A stretch of DNA of 64,000 bases from Bacteroidales bacterium (lineage in GTDB: Bacteria > Bacteroidota > Bacteroidia > Bacteroidales > UBA932): the NCBI GenBank assembly GCA_017443465.1, contig JAFRXO010000002.1, positions 1 through 64,000 on the forward strand, read 5' to 3'. The notes below the pieces were generated by a model. The model saw only the letters and a list, made by a program, of their open reading frames with translations. It searched no databases and was not told where the DNA came from. The translations under genes were made by a program, and so were the position numbers. This document shows, piece by piece, positions 2,631 to 45,182 of the stretch (positions within the stretch are counted from its first letter, which is position 1; each line of letters opens with the position of its first letter).

Positions 2631-4964
2631 ATGAAAAGTTACCTGAAATTCCTCTCCCGCAATAAGCTCTACACCGCCATCGAGGCGGTGGGGCTGGCCG
2701 TGAGCCTGGCCTTCGTGATTATCATCGGCAGTTATGTGGTTCAGCAATTCGAGGTCAAGTATGAGAACCCGAACTGGAGAGACGTTTACACTTTTGCCAT
2801 GGTGGAAGACGGATACCCGGATCAGTTGGGACTGACCTACACCTTCACGGATGCCATCAAAGCGGCGGCGCCGGAAGTGGAAATGGCAGGCAGGCTATCA
2901 CCTGTGGAGATGCTTATGACGCCGAAGGAAGGAACCCTGCAGGCTAAAGTGGTCACGGCCGACAAGAATTTCTTCGAGCTGTTCCCGAATCTGAAATTTG
3001 TCGAAGGCAGCCCGGAGGTGCTTTCGGATGCCGGGAATATAATTATCAGCGAAGAGTTTTCCAACAAGTCAGGTCTTAAACTCGGAGACAATTGGAAACT
3101 CGGAGACGATTCTTTTACCGTCGCCGCCATTATGAAAGACTGGAAGTCTACGCTTTTCGAGTATGCCGACATAGTCCTTTCCATCGATGGCCACATCAAA
3201 GGTTTCTCCGACCCCAACGACCAGTTCGGCAGTGTATATACCTTCGTCAAGCTTTCCCATGGCACCGATAGAAACGCCCTGGAAGAGAAGGCGGTATCCG
3301 TTTGCAAAAACCTGTATGACTTCTATGGATCCTCCTTCCTGCAAGGAGTGAGAGTATATCGGCTGGACGAACTGCTCTTCGGGGAAGTTCACGGAAACAC
3401 CATCAACGGACGTATCGCCCACAGCGACAAACGGACGCTGGACCTGCTGCTTGCGGCAGTGCTGCTCCTGCTTGTGAGCGCCGTATTCAATTACATCAAC
3501 CTGAACATGGCGTTCAGCATAAAACGTGCCCGGGAGATGGCCACAAGGCGGCTTATCGGAGCTTCGAAGGCTTCCATCTTCGGCCGGCGCATCCTGGAAT
3601 CCATGCTCTTTACGCTGGTGTGCTTTGTCATTTCTCTCCTTCTTGCCCTTTGGTGGACGCCGATGGTAAACCGCTTGTTGAACGACCCCGACATTGCCAT
3701 CCGGATCCAGTTTACGCCTAAATACATTGCCATTTTCACGGTCCTTGTGCTTGTAGTCGGCTCGATTTCCGGACTCCTTCCCGCCCTGTTTTCCAGCCGA
3801 TGGAAGCCCATCGACGTGGTTCGCGGAAGCTTTCGGGCGCAAAGCAAAATGACGTTCAGTAAGATATTTATCGTCCTGCAATGTGCGCTGTCGGTTTTCC
3901 TGATAGCCATGGCCATCGTCATGGAAGCGCAGTACCGGAAATCGCTGGACCGGCCCGTTCATGCCGATATTGGCAACAAATATATCCTGCAGTCTGCCTC
4001 CTTCGGTCTCTCGTCTCTCAGAAGTTCATTGGAGGCACTGCCTTTCGTTGATCACACAGGGCTAGCCTTTCAGGTGCCCGGGCAGCATGGGAACGGCCAG
4101 TACAGCAAGACGATGGACGACAAAGACATTCTCTACCGGGTGTACCACATGGACAAAGATGCCTTTGACATCCTGGGGCTGGAGGTGCTGGCAGATTACA
4201 ATGCTCCGGTGAACAATACCGTCTGGTTCGGAGAATCGGCATTTGCGGCTACCGGTTTTACCGATGCGTCCCATGATATCGGGGTTCTGAGCCAGCGAAT
4301 GGGTAATTGCGAGAACATGGGCGGCGTCATTGCCGATTTTCCGGTCTCCTTGAACAATATGGGAGCTAAGGAAAACATGATTGTCCTTGTCGAAAATATT
4401 CAGGAAACGTTCCCTTATACTTACGGCATATTGATGGAAATCAGCGGAGACCATGAAGAGGCCCGGGAACAGATCAGGGAAACCTATGAGACCTGGAAAA
4501 AGGACAATACGGTCTATTACGAACTGGCTAACGGTTACCTGACTGAGTTCTATGAAACAGCGCTGAAGCCTGCCCGGAACAACATGCGCCTGATGGAGGT
4601 TTTCATGGCGCTTGCACTGCTGCTTTCGCTTCTGGACCTGCTAGCCATGACCACCTATTATGCCGATGAAAAAGCCCATGACATCGCCGTACGCAAGGTG
4701 TTCGGTGGGACAGTTGACTCCGAGGCCCGAAGAACCATCCAGGATTATATGGTGCTCGTCAGTATAGCTTGCATCATCGGCATTCCGATTGCCGTCTATA
4801 CCGCCCAGGAATACCTCAAAGACTTTATTTACAGGCTGGAAGGCTATTGGTGGATATTCGGGGTGACTGTGGTCATCACTCTCGTCATCAGTCTCCTCTC
4901 CGTCATCTGGCAAACCCTCAAGGCCGCCCGCACCAATCCGGCGACGGAACTTAAAAAAGAATAG
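2631..4964 (+). CDS. MacB/FtsX-type ABC transporter permease, paralog 2
   Basis: A 777-residue inner-membrane permease, same architecture as its neighbours: an N-terminal TM (LAVSLAFVIIIGSYVV), a periplasmic MacB-like core, a first FtsX domain with RAREMATRRLIGA, a second half starting FSKIFIVLQCALS, and a final FtsX domain with AHDIAVRKVFGG, ending NPATELKKE. The start is the ATG at 2631, which gives the family N-terminus MKSYLKFLSRN; upstream in-frame codons translate a hairpin repeat. The tandem arrangement suggests several related exporters, or subunits of heteromeric complexes sharing one ATPase. Function beyond ABC permease cannot be read from the sequence. Confidence 0.9.
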   Translation: MKSYLKFLSRNKLYTAIEAVGLAVSLAFVIIIGSYVVQQFEVKYENPNWRDVYTFAMVEDGYPDQLGLTYTFTDAIKAAAPEVEMAGRLSPVEMLMTPKEGTLQAKVVTADKNFFELFPNLKFVEGSPEVLSDAGNIIISEEFSNKSGLKLGDNWKLGDDSFTVAAIMKDWKSTLFEYADIVLSIDGHIKGFSDPNDQFGSVYTFVKLSHGTDRNALEEKAVSVCKNLYDFYGSSFLQGVRVYRLDELLFGEVHGNTINGRIAHSDKRTLDLLLAAVLLLLVSAVFNYINLNMAFSIKRAREMATRRLIGASKASIFGRRILESMLFTLVCFVISLLLALWWTPMVNRLLNDPDIAIRIQFTPKYIAIFTVLVLVVGSISGLLPALFSSRWKPIDVVRGSFRAQSKMTFSKIFIVLQCALSVFLIAMAIVMEAQYRKSLDRPVHADIGNKYILQSASFGLSSLRSSLEALPFVDHTGLAFQVPGQHGNGQYSKTMDDKDILYRVYHMDKDAFDILGLEVLADYNAPVNNTVWFGESAFAATGFTDASHDIGVLSQRMGNCENMGGVIADFPVSLNNMGAKENMIVLVENIQETFPYTYGILMEISGDHEEAREQIRETYETWKKDNTVYYELANGYLTEFYETALKPARNNMRLMEVFMALALLLSLLDLLAMTTYYADEKAHDIAVRKVFGGTVDSEARRTIQDYMVLVSIACIIGIPIAVYTAQEYLKDFIYRLEGYWWIFGVTVVITLVISLLSVIWQTLKAARTNPATELKKE

Positions 4965-37090: not shown

Positions 37091-40000
37091 TTAAATAATT
37101 ATTTTCTTCGGGAACCTTACGGTAAAGCATGCTCCTCCGAGCATAAAGGACTTGGAGTAGGAAATCTCACCTCCGCATTTCTCCAGGATGTTTCGACATA
37201 TGGCCAGTCCGAGGCCGGTGCCGCTGCTCTTGGTAGTGAAGTTCGGGGTAAAGAGTTTCTGCCGGTTTTCCTCGGAGACTCCGGGACCGCTATCCTCGAC
37301 CACGACGTCATAGAAGCCATCCTTACGGGAGTTCCTAAGCGACACCAGTATATTCCCTTCCCTTGGCTGGACGCCCTTCTCGATATCCTCTTCCCTCTGC
37401 CCCTCTATTGCCTGGACAGCATTGGTGAGCAGGTTTACGAAAACGCGGGTCAGCTGAGGCTTCGGACCTGAGATCATGGCATTCTCAAGGCCCATGTACT
37501 GCAGGGTGATATCCTCTTTGCTGTCGAACATGTCGATTTCCTCCTTCAGCAGCCTGTCAAGGTCTATGTCCACCGGTTCCTCGGTGTACAGACGAGCGAA
37601 AGTAGAGAACTCGTTGGCGGTGTCGGCAAGGATATCGATGTGGTCGAGCACCACCTTGCTCACCTCGTCGAACTTCTCCGCCCAAGACGGGTCTCCGCGC
37701 TGCTTCATCCTGATCAGCCTCTGGATCTGGAGCTTCATCGGGGTAAGCGGATTCTTGATCTCATGTGCTACCTGCCTTGCCATGCCGCTCCATGCCTTGT
37801 CACGCTCGGCGACTGCCAGCTTCTTTGTGGAATCCGACAAGTCGTGCACCATAAGGTTATATGCCCGCACAAGGGTCGAGATCTCATCGTTCCGGTCATA
37901 TATGATATACTCCAGGTGGCCGATCTCAGCTGAATTCATCTTGCGTCCCATCTCTGAAAGCGGGCTGAACATCCTGTTGACGACGAGGCCGACTCCAAGG
38001 CGGGAAAGGAGGAGCAGGATGATGAAGAGCATTATGACAATGGCCGAGTGAAGGATGGCCTCGGACCCGAGGTCGAAACTCTCGTCCGAATAGGGTGCGC
38101 TCACGATTGCCAAAATACCTCCCGAGGAATTCATCACAGGAGCATACAGGGCCTGGTAGGAATGGTTGCCGATCTTCTCTGTGGCAACATAATAACGCTT
38201 GTGCGCAAGCATTATGTCGGCATATGCCTTGTCACTGATCCTCAATGGCAGGATACGCCGGTCGAAAAGCTGGGTCGCGGTCGAGCGGAACGCCATTCCG
38301 CCGGTCGTGTACAGGGTGATGTCTGTGGAATTGATGTTGCTCACCAGGTCCAGGAAGGTTGACACCTCCTGCGTGCTGATTTCATCGACTGAATTCACGA
38401 AGCGCATACGGTCCTCCAGCATTGTCCGGATTGTCTTGATCTTGTCGGACATGTTGGAGTACATGTTGGCCCGGCTTCTCCTGATGATGAAATTCAGGCT
38501 CAGGGCCGACATGGACACCAGGGTCAGGAACAGGGAGATCATCAAGAGCCAGGTGATCCTCGACTTGTAGTAGTTGCGCTCAGCCCTCTTGCGCCTTACC
38601 ATCGACAGGCCGAATAGGGAGAATACGAGGAAAAGCACTACCATCAGGACAAAGCCTGCGATCATATAGTAGAAAACGGGGATAAGCTGACGGGATATGA
38701 CTATGACCTCGTCATCCCCCACGTCATGATAGAAATGCCTGTAGCCGTCATCTTTTTTCTCCCTCTCTCCCAAAGCGGTAGGATAGGCATATGCTCCCCA
38801 GCTCATCATGCACTTCCCTTCTATGTACCTGGAATAGGAGTACCTTCCCGGGAGCACTACCTGGCCTGGAGGGGTCAGGCCCAGGATACCGGAATAACCC
38901 ATGGAGCCCCTGTTCGCCTTGGGCTCGACCTCTACCATGACTGTGGACATCCCATAGTCATTGTAATAGCGGAAGACACCGGCATATCTGGGACCGCCGC
39001 TTTCATGGCGGGTGTAGATGAACCTGGATCCCGGAGCTATGATGGCACCTCCCCTGAGGCGGTCATTGTAATACTGTATTGACTCCGGAGAACTGTCCGC
39101 ATTGAATATCCTCACCGCCATGTCATAGTCAGAGACCAGCTGCGGGAAATAGATCTCCCTCAAGCGGTTCTGGATAAGGGTGACGGAATTCTCCAGGGCC
39201 GAAACCGATGCGATGAACCGGTCGGAGGCAATCTGGGTCTCCAGGCTGCGGAGGGTTATCTCCAGGGATATGTCCCTGTCCATGGACAAGCGGTTGGCCC
39301 AGACCTTCTCTATCTGATGCTCCTTGCGGAATCCCAGCACAGAGACCGATACGGTCATCAGGACCGCCAGCGCCAGCGAGAAGAAAATCCTGCCCCAAAG
39401 GGAGAAGACATCATATCTGAAAGAGAAGAGCTTCGCCACGGCAGGACGGGCCATCTGGAGAAGCAGCAGGACCGAAACCGCAAGGGATATGAAAATCATA
39501 TAGACAACCGCGGTCTCCCAGGAAAGTTCCCTGATCCTGAAGAGGTCCAGGGTTATGTTGGAGTTAAGGATAATGCTCCGGAACGCCCACACGGCATACG
39601 CCGTAATACCAATGGAAAGAATCAGGAGAGCCGACAGGTTCAACACCGCGTTCCTGTCCGACTCCAGCATGGAGCGGGCGATGCCAAGGCGCGCCACATA
39701 TGCATATATCACCGTCATGAAAACGGCCATAGCCACCATTACCTGGACTCCGAGCGAAGAGAAGACCGGGCCGTCGGCATACAGGGTCGGAGAGAATATG
39801 CCGGAGGTCTCAGCCCGTCCGTGAGTCCACAGGAAGATCAGGGAGATGATCACCACCAGTCCGGCGGACGCGGCAAGCACTCGCGGAAGGGTCTTGCGGA
39901 TCGAGACATAGAAGACCGATCCGATCATATATATGAACAAGGCCAGCCATATGAAAAGCACGTCGGGACCTGTCGCGGCATAGTCCGACTCGCTCATTAT

Positions 40001-40606
40001 CTTGAAAACCGGCTTGCCTTCATACATCACAGGCGAACCGCCGCTGGCCGAAAGCACGTCTACGGAATATGCATCGCTCAGATGAAAACGCGGATTAACT
40101 CCATTATTCGACGTTTCATCCTGGAAATCAGCTATTTCCAGACCACATATGACTCTGTCGTCCTCTTCCCTGAACTCCCTGACGAGGTACCACTTCGAAC
40201 CATAGTTCTCGAACGAAGGTTCCCCGGTCACATATGTCAGGGGTGAAACCAGGCTTTCGCTCAGGTTGGTAAGGGTCTGGAAGACCATAACCCTGGATAT
40301 GTCGTCATTTATCAGCGGAAACGCCCCGGACCAGGCCTGCAGGCTGTCGTCTGCGTACCTGTATATGACCATGTCGGAAGGGATCTCCGCGATGTTAAGC
40401 CAGGAATAGTCGGTCTCGGACAGGGCCTGACGGGAGAACGCCTCCATCCGGGCCATCCGCTTCGCGAGGATGGACTCGACCCTGGAAGCAGCGGCACGGG
40501 TATCCTTCGGCCCCCTGGTCACTGTAAAAGCCGCGATAATGAAGACGGCTGACAGTACCAGGAAAACGGCCGCGAAGACCTTCCGTATGTTCATCCTGCG
40601 ATTCAT
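37091..40606 (-). CDS. NtrY-like membrane sensor histidine kinase
   Basis: 1,171 residues. N-terminal TM, a ~190-residue extracytoplasmic region, a cluster of about six TMs (about 215-420: DVLFIWLALFIYMIGSVFYV, then VLAASAGLVVIISLIFLWTH), a second large sensory region flanked by TMs near 440 and 670-710, a further sensory segment, a TM near 860 and HAMP (NRMFSPLSEMGRKMNSAEIG). The kinase core has ARQVAHEIKNPLTPMKLQ with the phospho-His at 948, N-box NLLTNAVQAI, G1 DSGPGV, F/G2 FTPNFTTKSSGTGLGLAI. The HEIKNPLTP and overall layout are those of NtrY. The ATG overlaps the rlmH stop (40603-40606). The likely partner is the NtrC-like regulator at 44,028, separated by four genes. Confidence 0.9.
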   Translation of the reverse strand: MNRRMNIRKVFAAVFLVLSAVFIIAAFTVTRGPKDTRAAASRVESILAKRMARMEAFSRQALSETDYSWLNIAEIPSDMVIYRYADDSLQAWSGAFPLINDDISRVMVFQTLTNLSESLVSPLTYVTGEPSFENYGSKWYLVREFREEDDRVICGLEIADFQDETSNNGVNPRFHLSDAYSVDVLSASGGSPVMYEGKPVFKIMSESDYAATGPDVLFIWLALFIYMIGSVFYVSIRKTLPRVLAASAGLVVIISLIFLWTHGRAETSGIFSPTLYADGPVFSSLGVQVMVAMAVFMTVIYAYVARLGIARSMLESDRNAVLNLSALLILSIGITAYAVWAFRSIILNSNITLDLFRIRELSWETAVVYMIFISLAVSVLLLLQMARPAVAKLFSFRYDVFSLWGRIFFSLALAVLMTVSVSVLGFRKEHQIEKVWANRLSMDRDISLEITLRSLETQIASDRFIASVSALENSVTLIQNRLREIYFPQLVSDYDMAVRIFNADSSPESIQYYNDRLRGGAIIAPGSRFIYTRHESGGPRYAGVFRYYNDYGMSTVMVEVEPKANRGSMGYSGILGLTPPGQVVLPGRYSYSRYIEGKCMMSWGAYAYPTALGEREKKDDGYRHFYHDVGDDEVIVISRQLIPVFYYMIAGFVLMVVLFLVFSLFGLSMVRRKRAERNYYKSRITWLLMISLFLTLVSMSALSLNFIIRRSRANMYSNMSDKIKTIRTMLEDRMRFVNSVDEISTQEVSTFLDLVSNINSTDITLYTTGGMAFRSTATQLFDRRILPLRISDKAYADIMLAHKRYYVATEKIGNHSYQALYAPVMNSSGGILAIVSAPYSDESFDLGSEAILHSAIVIMLFIILLLLSRLGVGLVVNRMFSPLSEMGRKMNSAEIGHLEYIIYDRNDEISTLVRAYNLMVHDLSDSTKKLAVAERDKAWSGMARQVAHEIKNPLTPMKLQIQRLIRMKQRGDPSWAEKFDEVSKVVLDHIDILADTANEFSTFARLYTEEPVDIDLDRLLKEEIDMFDSKEDITLQYMGLENAMISGPKPQLTRVFVNLLTNAVQAIEGQREEDIEKGVQPREGNILVSLRNSRKDGFYDVVVEDSGPGVSEENRQKLFTPNFTTKSSGTGLGLAICRNILEKCGGEISYSKSFMLGGACFTVRFPKKIII

Positions 40607-41543: not shown

Positions 41544-41576
41544 AGTAAACAAACTAAAGCAATTTTGACGCCTTTT

Positions 41577-41592
41577 TGGCACAAGACTTGCA
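41577..41592 (+). promoter_or_regulatory. sigma-54 (RpoN) promoter
   Basis: TGGCAC-AAGAC-TTGCA matches the -24/-12 consensus TGGCACG-N4-TTGCA at every invariant base and with exact spacing. Transcription would start near 41603. It lies just past the DUF4783 stop codon; no open reading frame follows on the plus strand before a strong terminator at 41639-41672. A NtrC-family activator gene is 2.4 kb away and an NtrY-like kinase 1 kb away. Confidence 0.6.
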
Positions 41593-41602
41593 AATAAATC
41601 GG

Positions 41603-41672
41603 ACGGTTAGTTTAGTTAATAATAGGGTTAAAATCAAGAAAAGGAGACAGCCGCGAGGTTCTCTCCTTTTTT
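41603..41672 (+). ncRNA. candidate sigma-54-dependent small RNA
   Basis: A ~70-base transcript bounded by the sigma-54 promoter (41577-41592) and an intrinsic terminator. The first ~35 bases are AU-rich and unstructured (a seed-like region with GGUUAGUUUAGUUAAUAAUAGG in pieces); the 3' half is the GNRA-capped terminator hairpin. No start codon with an open frame of useful length is present. Prediction only: the transcript start is inferred from promoter spacing, and conservation was not checked. Confidence 0.45.
41639..41672 (+). terminator. GNRA-capped Rho-independent terminator
   Basis: AAAAGGAGA pairs with TCTCCTTTT (9 bp); after a C-C mismatch AGCC pairs with GGTT and closes a GCGA tetraloop (GNRA). 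A run of six T follows (41667-41672). Convergent efp ends at 41701. It can end both DUF4783 read-through and the candidate small RNA. Confidence 0.8.
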
Positions 41673-41700: not shown

Positions 41701-42270
41701 CTACCTCTCGACCCTCTGGCCGTAAGTGCGGTCAACAGTGTTGACGGTGATCACATCACCGGTATTGATGAACAAGGGGACCATCACCTTTGCTCCGGTC
41801 TCGAGAGTGCATTCCTTCTGCGCGTTGGTAGAAGTGTTGCCCTTGACTGCGGGTTCCGAATAAGTGACCTCGAGAGTGACATATGTCGGGAGCTCACATG
41901 TGAGGCACCTCTCCTCGGGCTCGGTCACGAACATCATCTCGACATGCTGTCCTTCCTTCATGAGGTCGTTGTTGGCCACTACGTCCTGGGGGATGGAAAC
42001 CTGCTCATAGGTCTCTTCATGCATGAAGACGAAGTTGTCACCCTCGGCATAGAGGTACTGGTAAGGACGCCTTTCGACAGAGATGGTTTCTACCCTGGCG
42101 CCGGCGTTGTAAGTGTTCTCGAGAATCCTTCCGTTCTCAAGGTTGCGGAGCTTTACCTTCACGAAAGCGGGGCCCTTTCCGGGTTTCACATGCTGGAACC
42201 ATACGATGACACAGGGTTTCCCGTTGAAATCGAGATAAAGACCGTTCTTAAAATCAGCTGTTGTTGCCAT
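41701..42270 (-). CDS. efp: elongation factor P
   Basis: 189 residues, three beta-barrel domains as in all EF-P (KOW-like N-terminus, OB, C-terminal OB ending TVDRTYGQRVER). The tip loop of domain I is HVKPGKGPAF with Lys32 as the residue that contacts the P-site tRNA and is modified in many bacteria. EF-P relieves stalling at polyproline. Own promoter at 42308-42315; the ATG is in CATATG. Confidence 0.97.
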   Translation of the reverse strand: MATTADFKNGLYLDFNGKPCVIVWFQHVKPGKGPAFVKVKLRNLENGRILENTYNAGARVETISVERRPYQYLYAEGDNFVFMHEETYEQVSIPQDVVANNDLMKEGQHVEMMFVTEPEERCLTCELPTYVTLEVTYSEPAVKGNTSTNAQKECTLETGAKVMVPLFINTGDVITVNTVDRTYGQRVER

Positions 42271-44027: not shown

Positions 44028-45182
44028 ATGAAAATCCTGGTAGTCGACGACGAGAAGTCAATCCGTAATTCCCTCAGGGAGATCCTCTCCGACGAGGGTT
44101 ATGAGGTTGATGTGGCCGAGGATGGTCCCATCGCCCTCAAGATGACCGCTGACGAGAAATACGACATAATATTCTGCGACATCAAGATGCCGGGGATGGA
44201 CGGGACCGAGGTGCTGTCGACCCTGGCCGGTTCGGGTTACGATGCCGCGATAATCATGATTTCCGGGCACGGAGACATCGACACCGCAGTGGACTGCATC
44301 AAGAAAGGAGCATATGATTTCATCCAGAAGCCCCTGGACCTCAACCGCATTCTCATAACCATAAAGAACGCTACCGACAAGACCAAGCTCGTCCAGGAGA
44401 CCAAGACCCTCAAGAAGAAAGTCTACGGCGGACAGCATATGGTAGGCAGTTCTGCCGCCCTTCAGCATATCCGCGACATAATCTCCAAAGTAGCGGCGAC
44501 GGATGCCAGGGTCCTTATCGAAGGAGCCAACGGCACGGGAAAGGAGCTGGTCGCCAGGTCCCTCTATCAGGAAAGCGACAGGGCCAACATGCCTTACATC
44601 GAGGTAAACTGTGCGGCTATCCCCTCTGAACTGATCGAGAGCGAACTGTTCGGACATGAAAAAGGCTCCTTCACCTCGGCCATCAAGCAGCACAAGGGAA
44701 AATTCGAGCAGGCTGACGGCGGAACTTTGTTCCTGGACGAGATAGGAGACATGTCCCTCGCCGCACAGGCGAAGGTCTTGAGGGTTCTCCAGGAGAAGAA
44801 GCTCTCCAGGGTCGGAAGCGACAAGGACATCGAAGTCAACGTAAGGGTGATCGCGGCTACCAACAAGGACCTCAAGGCCGAGATCGAGAAGGGGAATTTC
44901 CGTGAAGACCTGTATCACAGGCTCTCTGTGATCATTATCCGCGTCCCCACCCTGGATGAACGTAAGGAAGACATCCCTGAACTGGTACAGTATTTCACGG
45001 CACAGATATGCGCTGAGAGCGGAAAGCCACTCCGCACCTTCTCTCCGGAAGCTGTCAAAGCCCTGCAGGCCAAGAGCTGGCCCGGAAACATCCGTGAGTT
45101 GCGCAACGTAGTGGAGAGGCTGCTGATCCTCGGCAATGAACCGGTCACGGCTAAAGACGTGTCCGACTATGCCTCTGCCTGA
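44028..45182 (+). CDS. NtrC-family sigma-54 response regulator lacking a DNA-binding domain
   Basis: 384 residues: receiver domain (VVDDEKSIRN, phospho-acceptor Asp51 in FCDIKMPG, KP at 101-102), then the sigma-54 AAA+ domain with Walker A EGANGTGKE (165-173), ELFGHEKGSFTSA (the sigma-54-contacting GAFTGA loop is GSFTSA, 213-218), Walker B GGTLFLDEIGD, sensor/Arg finger FREDLYHRL, and WPGNIRELRNVVER near 351-364. It stops at DVSDYASA without the ~60-residue Fis-type helix-turn-helix. It would activate sigma-54 promoters from solution or through another protein. The probable kinase is the NtrY-like protein at 37,091-40,606. It is 30 bases from the next gene on the same strand. Confidence 0.9.
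   Translation: MKILVVDDEKSIRNSLREILSDEGYEVDVAEDGPIALKMTADEKYDIIFCDIKMPGMDGTEVLSTLAGSGYDAAIIMISGHGDIDTAVDCIKKGAYDFIQKPLDLNRILITIKNATDKTKLVQETKTLKKKVYGGQHMVGSSAALQHIRDIISKVAATDARVLIEGANGTGKELVARSLYQESDRANMPYIEVNCAAIPSELIESELFGHEKGSFTSAIKQHKGKFEQADGGTLFLDEIGDMSLAAQAKVLRVLQEKKLSRVGSDKDIEVNVRVIAATNKDLKAEIEKGNFREDLYHRLSVIIIRVPTLDERKEDIPELVQYFTAQICAESGKPLRTFSPEAVKALQAKSWPGNIRELRNVVERLLILGNEPVTAKDVSDYASA

Follow-up and report, generated by a model that had tools for sequence, protein, structure and literature searches.

A candidate sigma-54-dependent small RNA family with a conserved 5′ arm in Candidatus Cryptobacteroides

The promoter, arm and terminator of the window locus

Does the short intergenic stretch between a DUF4783 gene (PF16022; 41088..41543, + strand) and the convergent gene for elongation factor P (efp; 41701..42270, − strand) encode an RNA of its own? 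The initial annotation of the window, the 64-kb stretch of DNA analyzed here, proposed that a sigma-54 promoter drives an orphan small RNA (sRNA) at 41577-41672. The promoter sequence (TGGCACAAGACTTGCA) is indeed present at 41577..41592 on the + strand as an exact match, with the −24 element (TGGCAC) and the −12 element (TTGC) separated by an N5 spacer. The annotation also cautioned that a match of this kind could be fortuitous. This caution was justified, because the pattern with at most one mismatch is expected 0.97 times by chance in a 64-kb window and the match is, thus, not significant on its own. A search of the window’s own genome for the strict pattern (TGGCAYRNNNNTTGCW) returned two sites, the one at 41577 and another located apparently inside a coding sequence.

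The promoter geometry places the predicted start of the transcript at 41603, 12 nt past the C of the −12 element (41591). Together with the terminator, this start delimits a predicted sRNA of ~70 nt (41603..41672, + strand). The 5′ half contains a conserved, cytosine-free arm (41605..41633, + strand), which alignments with relatives delimit and which in the window carries a 3-nt deletion relative to the genus consensus. An intrinsic terminator hairpin with a U-rich 3′ side follows at 41637..41672 (+ strand), as recognized by folding and by covariation in relatives. It folds as the annotation described: a lower stem, a C·C mismatch, four additional base pairs and a GCGA loop ahead of the U-rich 3′ side. 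The predicted energy of the hairpin is −18.3 kcal/mol (z-score of −2.85), and 1 of 200 shuffled sequences folded equally well. A simple terminator scan of the window did not include the hairpin 41637-41672 in its output. Consistent with the annotated lack of a downstream gene, no + strand open reading frame of 60 or more amino acids starts between 41543 and 41680.

Conservation and range of the unit in the genus

A DNA search of 199 genomes of the family recovered the stretch ~41574-41630 in several genomes of the same genus. Reading these sequences confirmed a recurring three-part unit: a −24/−12 promoter followed 13-15 nt downstream by the arm (GGTTAGTTTAGTTGTTAATAATAGGGTTAT) and then by a hairpin resembling an intrinsic terminator. 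We located 124 distinct places with an arm pattern that was blind to both promoter and hairpin. The strict promoter TGGCA-Y-N5-TTG was found in 120 of them; among the other four, one was cut by the end of the locus and three were near-consensus. TTGN and the arm were separated by 13-15 nt for 117 of these strict promoters, and the last position of TTGC was a C in 102 of the 120. These places and their arms are kin sequences, so the counts reflect non-independent events. In an alignment of 12 sequences, the −24 TGGCA and the −12 TTG are invariant while the spacer and flanks drift. Furthermore, a matrix built from the promoters of the relatives identified 41577-41592 as the only site in the window scoring above 10 bits. 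The strength of the promoter assignment comes, therefore, from the comparison with relatives, the window alone being no better than chance.

The hairpins are conserved in structure and have little sequence in common in the 12-sequence alignment. We folded the 3′ part of 134 of the 137 sequences collected, after excluding three that were shortened. All 134 complete sequences folded with z-scores below −2 (mean of −5.2), and all 134 hairpins were different. In 113 of them the stem had 8 or more pairs and the T-run 3 or more, and the stem or the T-run was weaker in the remaining 21. Five close relatives have hairpins of equal length, in which each of the 70 cells is paired and both sides have changed in 4 of the 14 pairs. 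This covariation count covers those five sequences; in a separate alignment of 12 sequences the hairpins do not line up. The initial annotation had pointed to a conserved −24/−12 element with a covarying terminator as the pattern to look for in related genomes. That comparison was run and both features were found, supporting the interpretation of the locus as a sigma-54-driven sRNA with conserved promoter, arm and terminator. In a subgroup of places (L063, L065, L068, L075 and L079), the stem starts with TTCACCTCC, a sequence that we take to resemble the 3′ end of the 16S rRNA. The likeness is probably a coincidence, as the sequence is paired inside the terminator.

The arm changes little. The block GGTTAGTTTAGTTGTTAATAATAGGGTTA is nearly unchanged in the 12-sequence alignment, and cytosine makes up 0.2% of the first 28 nt of the arm across 137 distinct sequences. 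Divergent members of the family keep GGTTAGTT and continue with rearranged units of the type GGTTTAGTT.

A query combining the promoter with GTTAGTT matched 67 of 150 genus genomes and none of the 150 in the reversed control. All 70 of the matches listed read GGTTAGTT, even though the query does not demand the first G. The strict pattern was absent from the other 83 of the 150 genomes in a search that misses variants. The same query matched 50 of 298 genomes sampled across the family, all 50 in the genus (50 of 111), and none of the 187 genomes of 24 other genera; its reversed control produced two matches in one genome. Among 393 genomes of the order, the exact arm pattern was found in three, which are the three same-genus genomes sampled, and the reversed control in one other genome. 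When the arm was modeled by its sequence alone (R1), at least 84 of the 300 genus genomes examined had a match at E ≤0.01, weak matches included. The count is a lower bound for strong matches, as 24 candidates per genome were scored from an initial pool of several hundred or more. A search of named genomes returned 111 matching stretches. The titles of the 80 listed are Candidatus Cryptobacteroides species or Bacteroidales/Bacteroidia metagenome-assembled genomes, and many of the source genomes listed come from animal guts, such as those of ruminants and deer.

Copy number varies within the genus. Most genomes matched by R1 are listed with one match and 17 of 300 have 2-4 matches of at least 27 bits, with four in G763. 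The description of the RNA as an orphan holds, thus, for the window’s genome, which has one match, and does not extend to the relatives that carry 2-4 copies. Paralogous copies flank a single gene or sit in tandem in several loci: L060 (at 1832, 6011 and 7982), L062, L063, L064, L065, L068, L202 and L176, the last with tandem copies at 3368 and 3474 that are 106 bp apart. Such arrangements could reflect genes that were moved or duplicated through recombination between the copies. The comparison of genomes establishes a conserved promoter, arm and terminator, the occurrence of multiple copies and a genus-wide range, and it indicates that the family duplicated and relocated among intergenic sites of Candidatus Cryptobacteroides.

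Gene neighborhood and candidate activators

The initial annotation also placed the sRNA between the two halves of a two-component system. Both genes are where it located them: an NtrY-like histidine kinase (37091..40606, − strand), a candidate for a possible sensor, and an NtrC-like enhancer-binding protein with receiver and sigma-54 AAA+ domains (44028..45182, + strand), a candidate activator. The neighborhood is not a requirement for the sRNA, which weakens this part of the claim. DUF4783 is the commonest neighbor of the sRNA (67 of 124 places) and 57 places have other neighbors; divergent forms in an additional set of places divide into 16 linked to DUF4783 and 17 that are not. When loci of 6 kb or longer were compared, 19 of the 22 linked to DUF4783 contained the kinase and 10 the NtrC-like gene, and none of the 20 non-DUF4783 loci contained either gene. 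Hence, the window represents a frequent location of the sRNA, and the kinase/regulator neighborhood is dispensable. In another genome of the genus (G096, locus L024), DUF4783 is present and the unit was not seen directly downstream of it.

The window’s genome encodes the sigma factor needed to read the promoter (rpoN, E of 1e-120) and three proteins with strong matches to the PF00158 domain (>220 bits; five other matches score ≤34 bits). The first is the window protein, with its receiver and AAA+ domains. The second has a receiver and an HTH-like end and is encoded beside a kinase (L221), and the third has an HTH-like end and no receiver (L222). Because the genome encodes three strong enhancer-binding proteins, the regulation of the sRNA may not be a dedicated one. 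A Pfam search of the window protein did not detect an HTH or other DNA-binding domain. Inspection of C-termini by eye indicated that nine of ten NtrC-like proteins (~385-400 amino acids) stop right after the AAA+ lid and have no Fis-type HTH; the ten come from the best-scoring PF00158 loci, a choice by score that favors the HTH-less type. These HTH-less proteins (window 44028-45182 and loci L212-L220) span several Bacteroidales families, with three coming from other families.

We also examined the region upstream of the promoter, where two AAAATCGA repeats had been proposed as an activator site. Both repeats are present in the window, but they are not a conserved site: the word lies inside the 3′ coding end of DUF4783 and is found in 10 of 67 DUF4783-linked places. 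We therefore rejected it as an activator site. The k-mers enriched upstream across all contexts are mostly DUF4783 coding words. A comparison of k-mers with dinucleotide shuffles in the 42 non-DUF4783 contexts revealed no shared upstream motif at a fixed place. The 7-mer AAGAACA occurs in 10 of the 42 (shuffle maximum of 7), but its position varies, it is found on either strand and some of its occurrences fall within related coding ends. A conserved upstream site would not be strictly needed if the activator has no DNA-binding domain. The lack of a common upstream site and the HTH-less enhancer-binding proteins are, thus, compatible with an activator that works without a fixed enhancer.

As to the signal, the promoters with the sigma-54 motif SM4 in Flavobacterium psychrophilum are reported to include those of groESL, lon, dnaK and grpE-dnaJ, and three PF00158 proteins are mentioned for this species (PMC9723704). 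These promoters offer a hint of stress physiology, which is not evidence for the Cryptobacteroides sRNA.

Proposed function of the arm and comparison with known systems

Taken together, the sequence comparisons make it very likely that the locus produces a real, sigma-54-driven and terminated RNA. If so, the RNA probably acts by base-pairing in trans. The reading that we favor as a whole, with reasonable though lesser confidence, is that 41577-41672 is a free-standing noncoding RNA gene of ~70 nt and a member of a new sigma-54 sRNA family whose arm base-pairs with mRNAs. We infer the following course of transcription, activation, base-pairing and target choice. An enhancer-binding AAA+ protein would drive initiation by the sigma-54 holoenzyme near 41603, and transcription would end at the terminator 41637-41672. 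The predicted product would have a flexible, cytosine-free 5′ arm and a terminator hairpin. The arm would then most likely pair with A/C-rich stretches near the start codons of mRNAs and alter their translation or stability. In this way, a sigma-54 signal would be relayed to genes that lack sigma-54 promoters.

Pairing near start codons is suggested for the Cryptobacteroides sRNA because its layout matches that of FopS, an sRNA whose arm is reported to pair near the start codons of SusC mRNAs in Bacteroides thetaiotaomicron (PMC11697453). With the window’s own arm, the mean pairing score was −17.2 for the 15 SusC starts of the same genome versus −13.9 for 51 window genes; with the consensus arm, the values were −14.6 and −13.6, and base composition is uncontrolled in both comparisons. 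Perfect complements of a 12-mer of the arm in 80 genomes numbered 8, of which 3 are the sRNA itself, and the reversed control numbered 31. In the vicinity of 743 starts, complementary 7- to 9-mers were not in excess of the mirror control; the starts were taken from the window and from the surroundings of sRNAs, enhancer-binding proteins and SusC, which biases the sample. Overall, these searches pointed to no specific target.

The absence of complementary targets in the 12-mer and the 7- to 9-mer searches would also fit an RNA that is real and sigma-54-driven but whose arm binds or sequesters an RNA-binding protein or part of the ribosome rather than acting as an antisense seed. Csr-sequestering RNAs follow a parallel logic. 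A distinct arm contains TTAG 2.1 times on average versus 1.1 in shuffles, and protein binding is conceivable because the UUAG repeats exceed the shuffles; the excess is partly due to descent, as the 45 distinct arms are mutually related. The divergent members also point in this direction, for they shuffle GGTT(T)AGTT units (GGUU(U)AGUU and UUAG in the RNA) rather than keep a single fixed sequence. On the other hand, 40 of 41 genus genomes, the window’s own among them, have no RRM proteins, the commonest RNA-binding family in Bacteroides. We regard the sponge as possible but unlikely. An RbpB-like partner was considered and rejected given this absence of RRM_1. The sole genome of the 41 with an RRM protein is G598 (L318), and the arm of its sRNA is divergent (L254). 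A more specific and doubtful version has the cytosine-free UUAG-repeat arm capturing a non-RRM RNA-binding factor or part of the translation machinery under the switch of a diffusible, HTH-less NtrC-like activator. If true, the Bacteroidota would have a global post-transcriptional switch of a new kind.

Alternatively, the unit could act solely in cis, as a sigma-54-driven terminator or leader that protects or regulates its neighbors, for example by ending DUF4783 or convergent transcripts. Most copies begin shortly past a gene end and the window hairpin sits between convergent genes, as this would predict. Yet the arm is kept beside many different genes, including at the 57 places not linked to DUF4783, and termination in cis has no need of a sigma-54 promoter or of a 30-nt arm of fixed sequence, which makes a cis-only role very unlikely. 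Even less credible is the idea that the repeat is DNA that moves or recombines, with incidental promoter-like and hairpin features: multiple copies, some flanking one gene (L063, L064, L065, L068 and L202), would suit it, but most R1-matched genomes are listed with a single match, and a DNA element does not explain why hairpins that differ in sequence keep their pairing and mostly their T-run. Finally, a chance sigma-54-like match ahead of an efp terminator, which the one match expected in the window and the failure of the simple scan to report the hairpin might have suggested, is refuted by the comparative data (the matches in 67 of 150 genus genomes against a control without hits and the 120 of 124 promoters).

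An sRNA family with an arm that pairs in trans, as we favor, has counterparts outside the Bacteroidota. Sigma-54-controlled sRNAs are known in Proteobacteria. The Qrr sRNAs of Vibrio, for example, have a sigma-54 promoter, an NtrC-type activator, one to several copies, a conserved pairing region and an intrinsic terminator, and are structured, Hfq-dependent RNAs of ~100 nt. The Cryptobacteroides family would share the promoter, activator type, copy range per genome, conserved pairing region and terminator; unlike in Qrr, its arm is 5′-terminal and cytosine-free. The GlmY/GlmZ RNAs of enterobacteria are longer, structured and processed. They resemble the Cryptobacteroides sRNA as small RNAs under sigma-54 and a two-component regulator, whereas the latter would be ~70 nt long and consist of a bare arm and a terminator. 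Scans of the window stretch and five relatives against Rfam release 15 returned no credible family match, including none to Qrr or GlmY/GlmZ; the look-alikes sroB, patAB, CsrC, FuFi-1 and toga_FSE scored far under their gathering scores and were discarded.

FopS is another close counterpart (PMC11697453). Both are RNAs of Bacteroidales, 65-70 nt long, and occur in several copies that share a conserved arm and vary in the 3′ part. The two differ in their promoters, which are of the sigma-ABfr type in FopS (PMC11697453) and of the sigma-54 type in the Cryptobacteroides family. They also differ in the expected protein partner, as FopS binds the RRM protein RbpB (PMC11697453) and nearly all the Cryptobacteroides genomes lack such proteins. 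Scanned against Rfam 15, the window stretch and the five relatives gave no match to FopS, whose presence in the scanned copy rests on the deposition in Rfam stated in its paper (PMC11697453). A literature search that covered few subscription papers, and most papers by title or abstract, found no sigma-54-dependent sRNA of Bacteroidota. Judged from sequence, what is very probably new is, thus, a sigma-54-controlled sRNA of FopS-like layout in a genus of the Bacteroidales. If expressed, it would give the Bacteroidota an sRNA that depends on sigma-54, in a genus that is common in animal guts but has received little study. It would also supply a concrete output for sigma-54 in the genus, with more than 100 natural variants available to dissect the arm, promoter and terminator.
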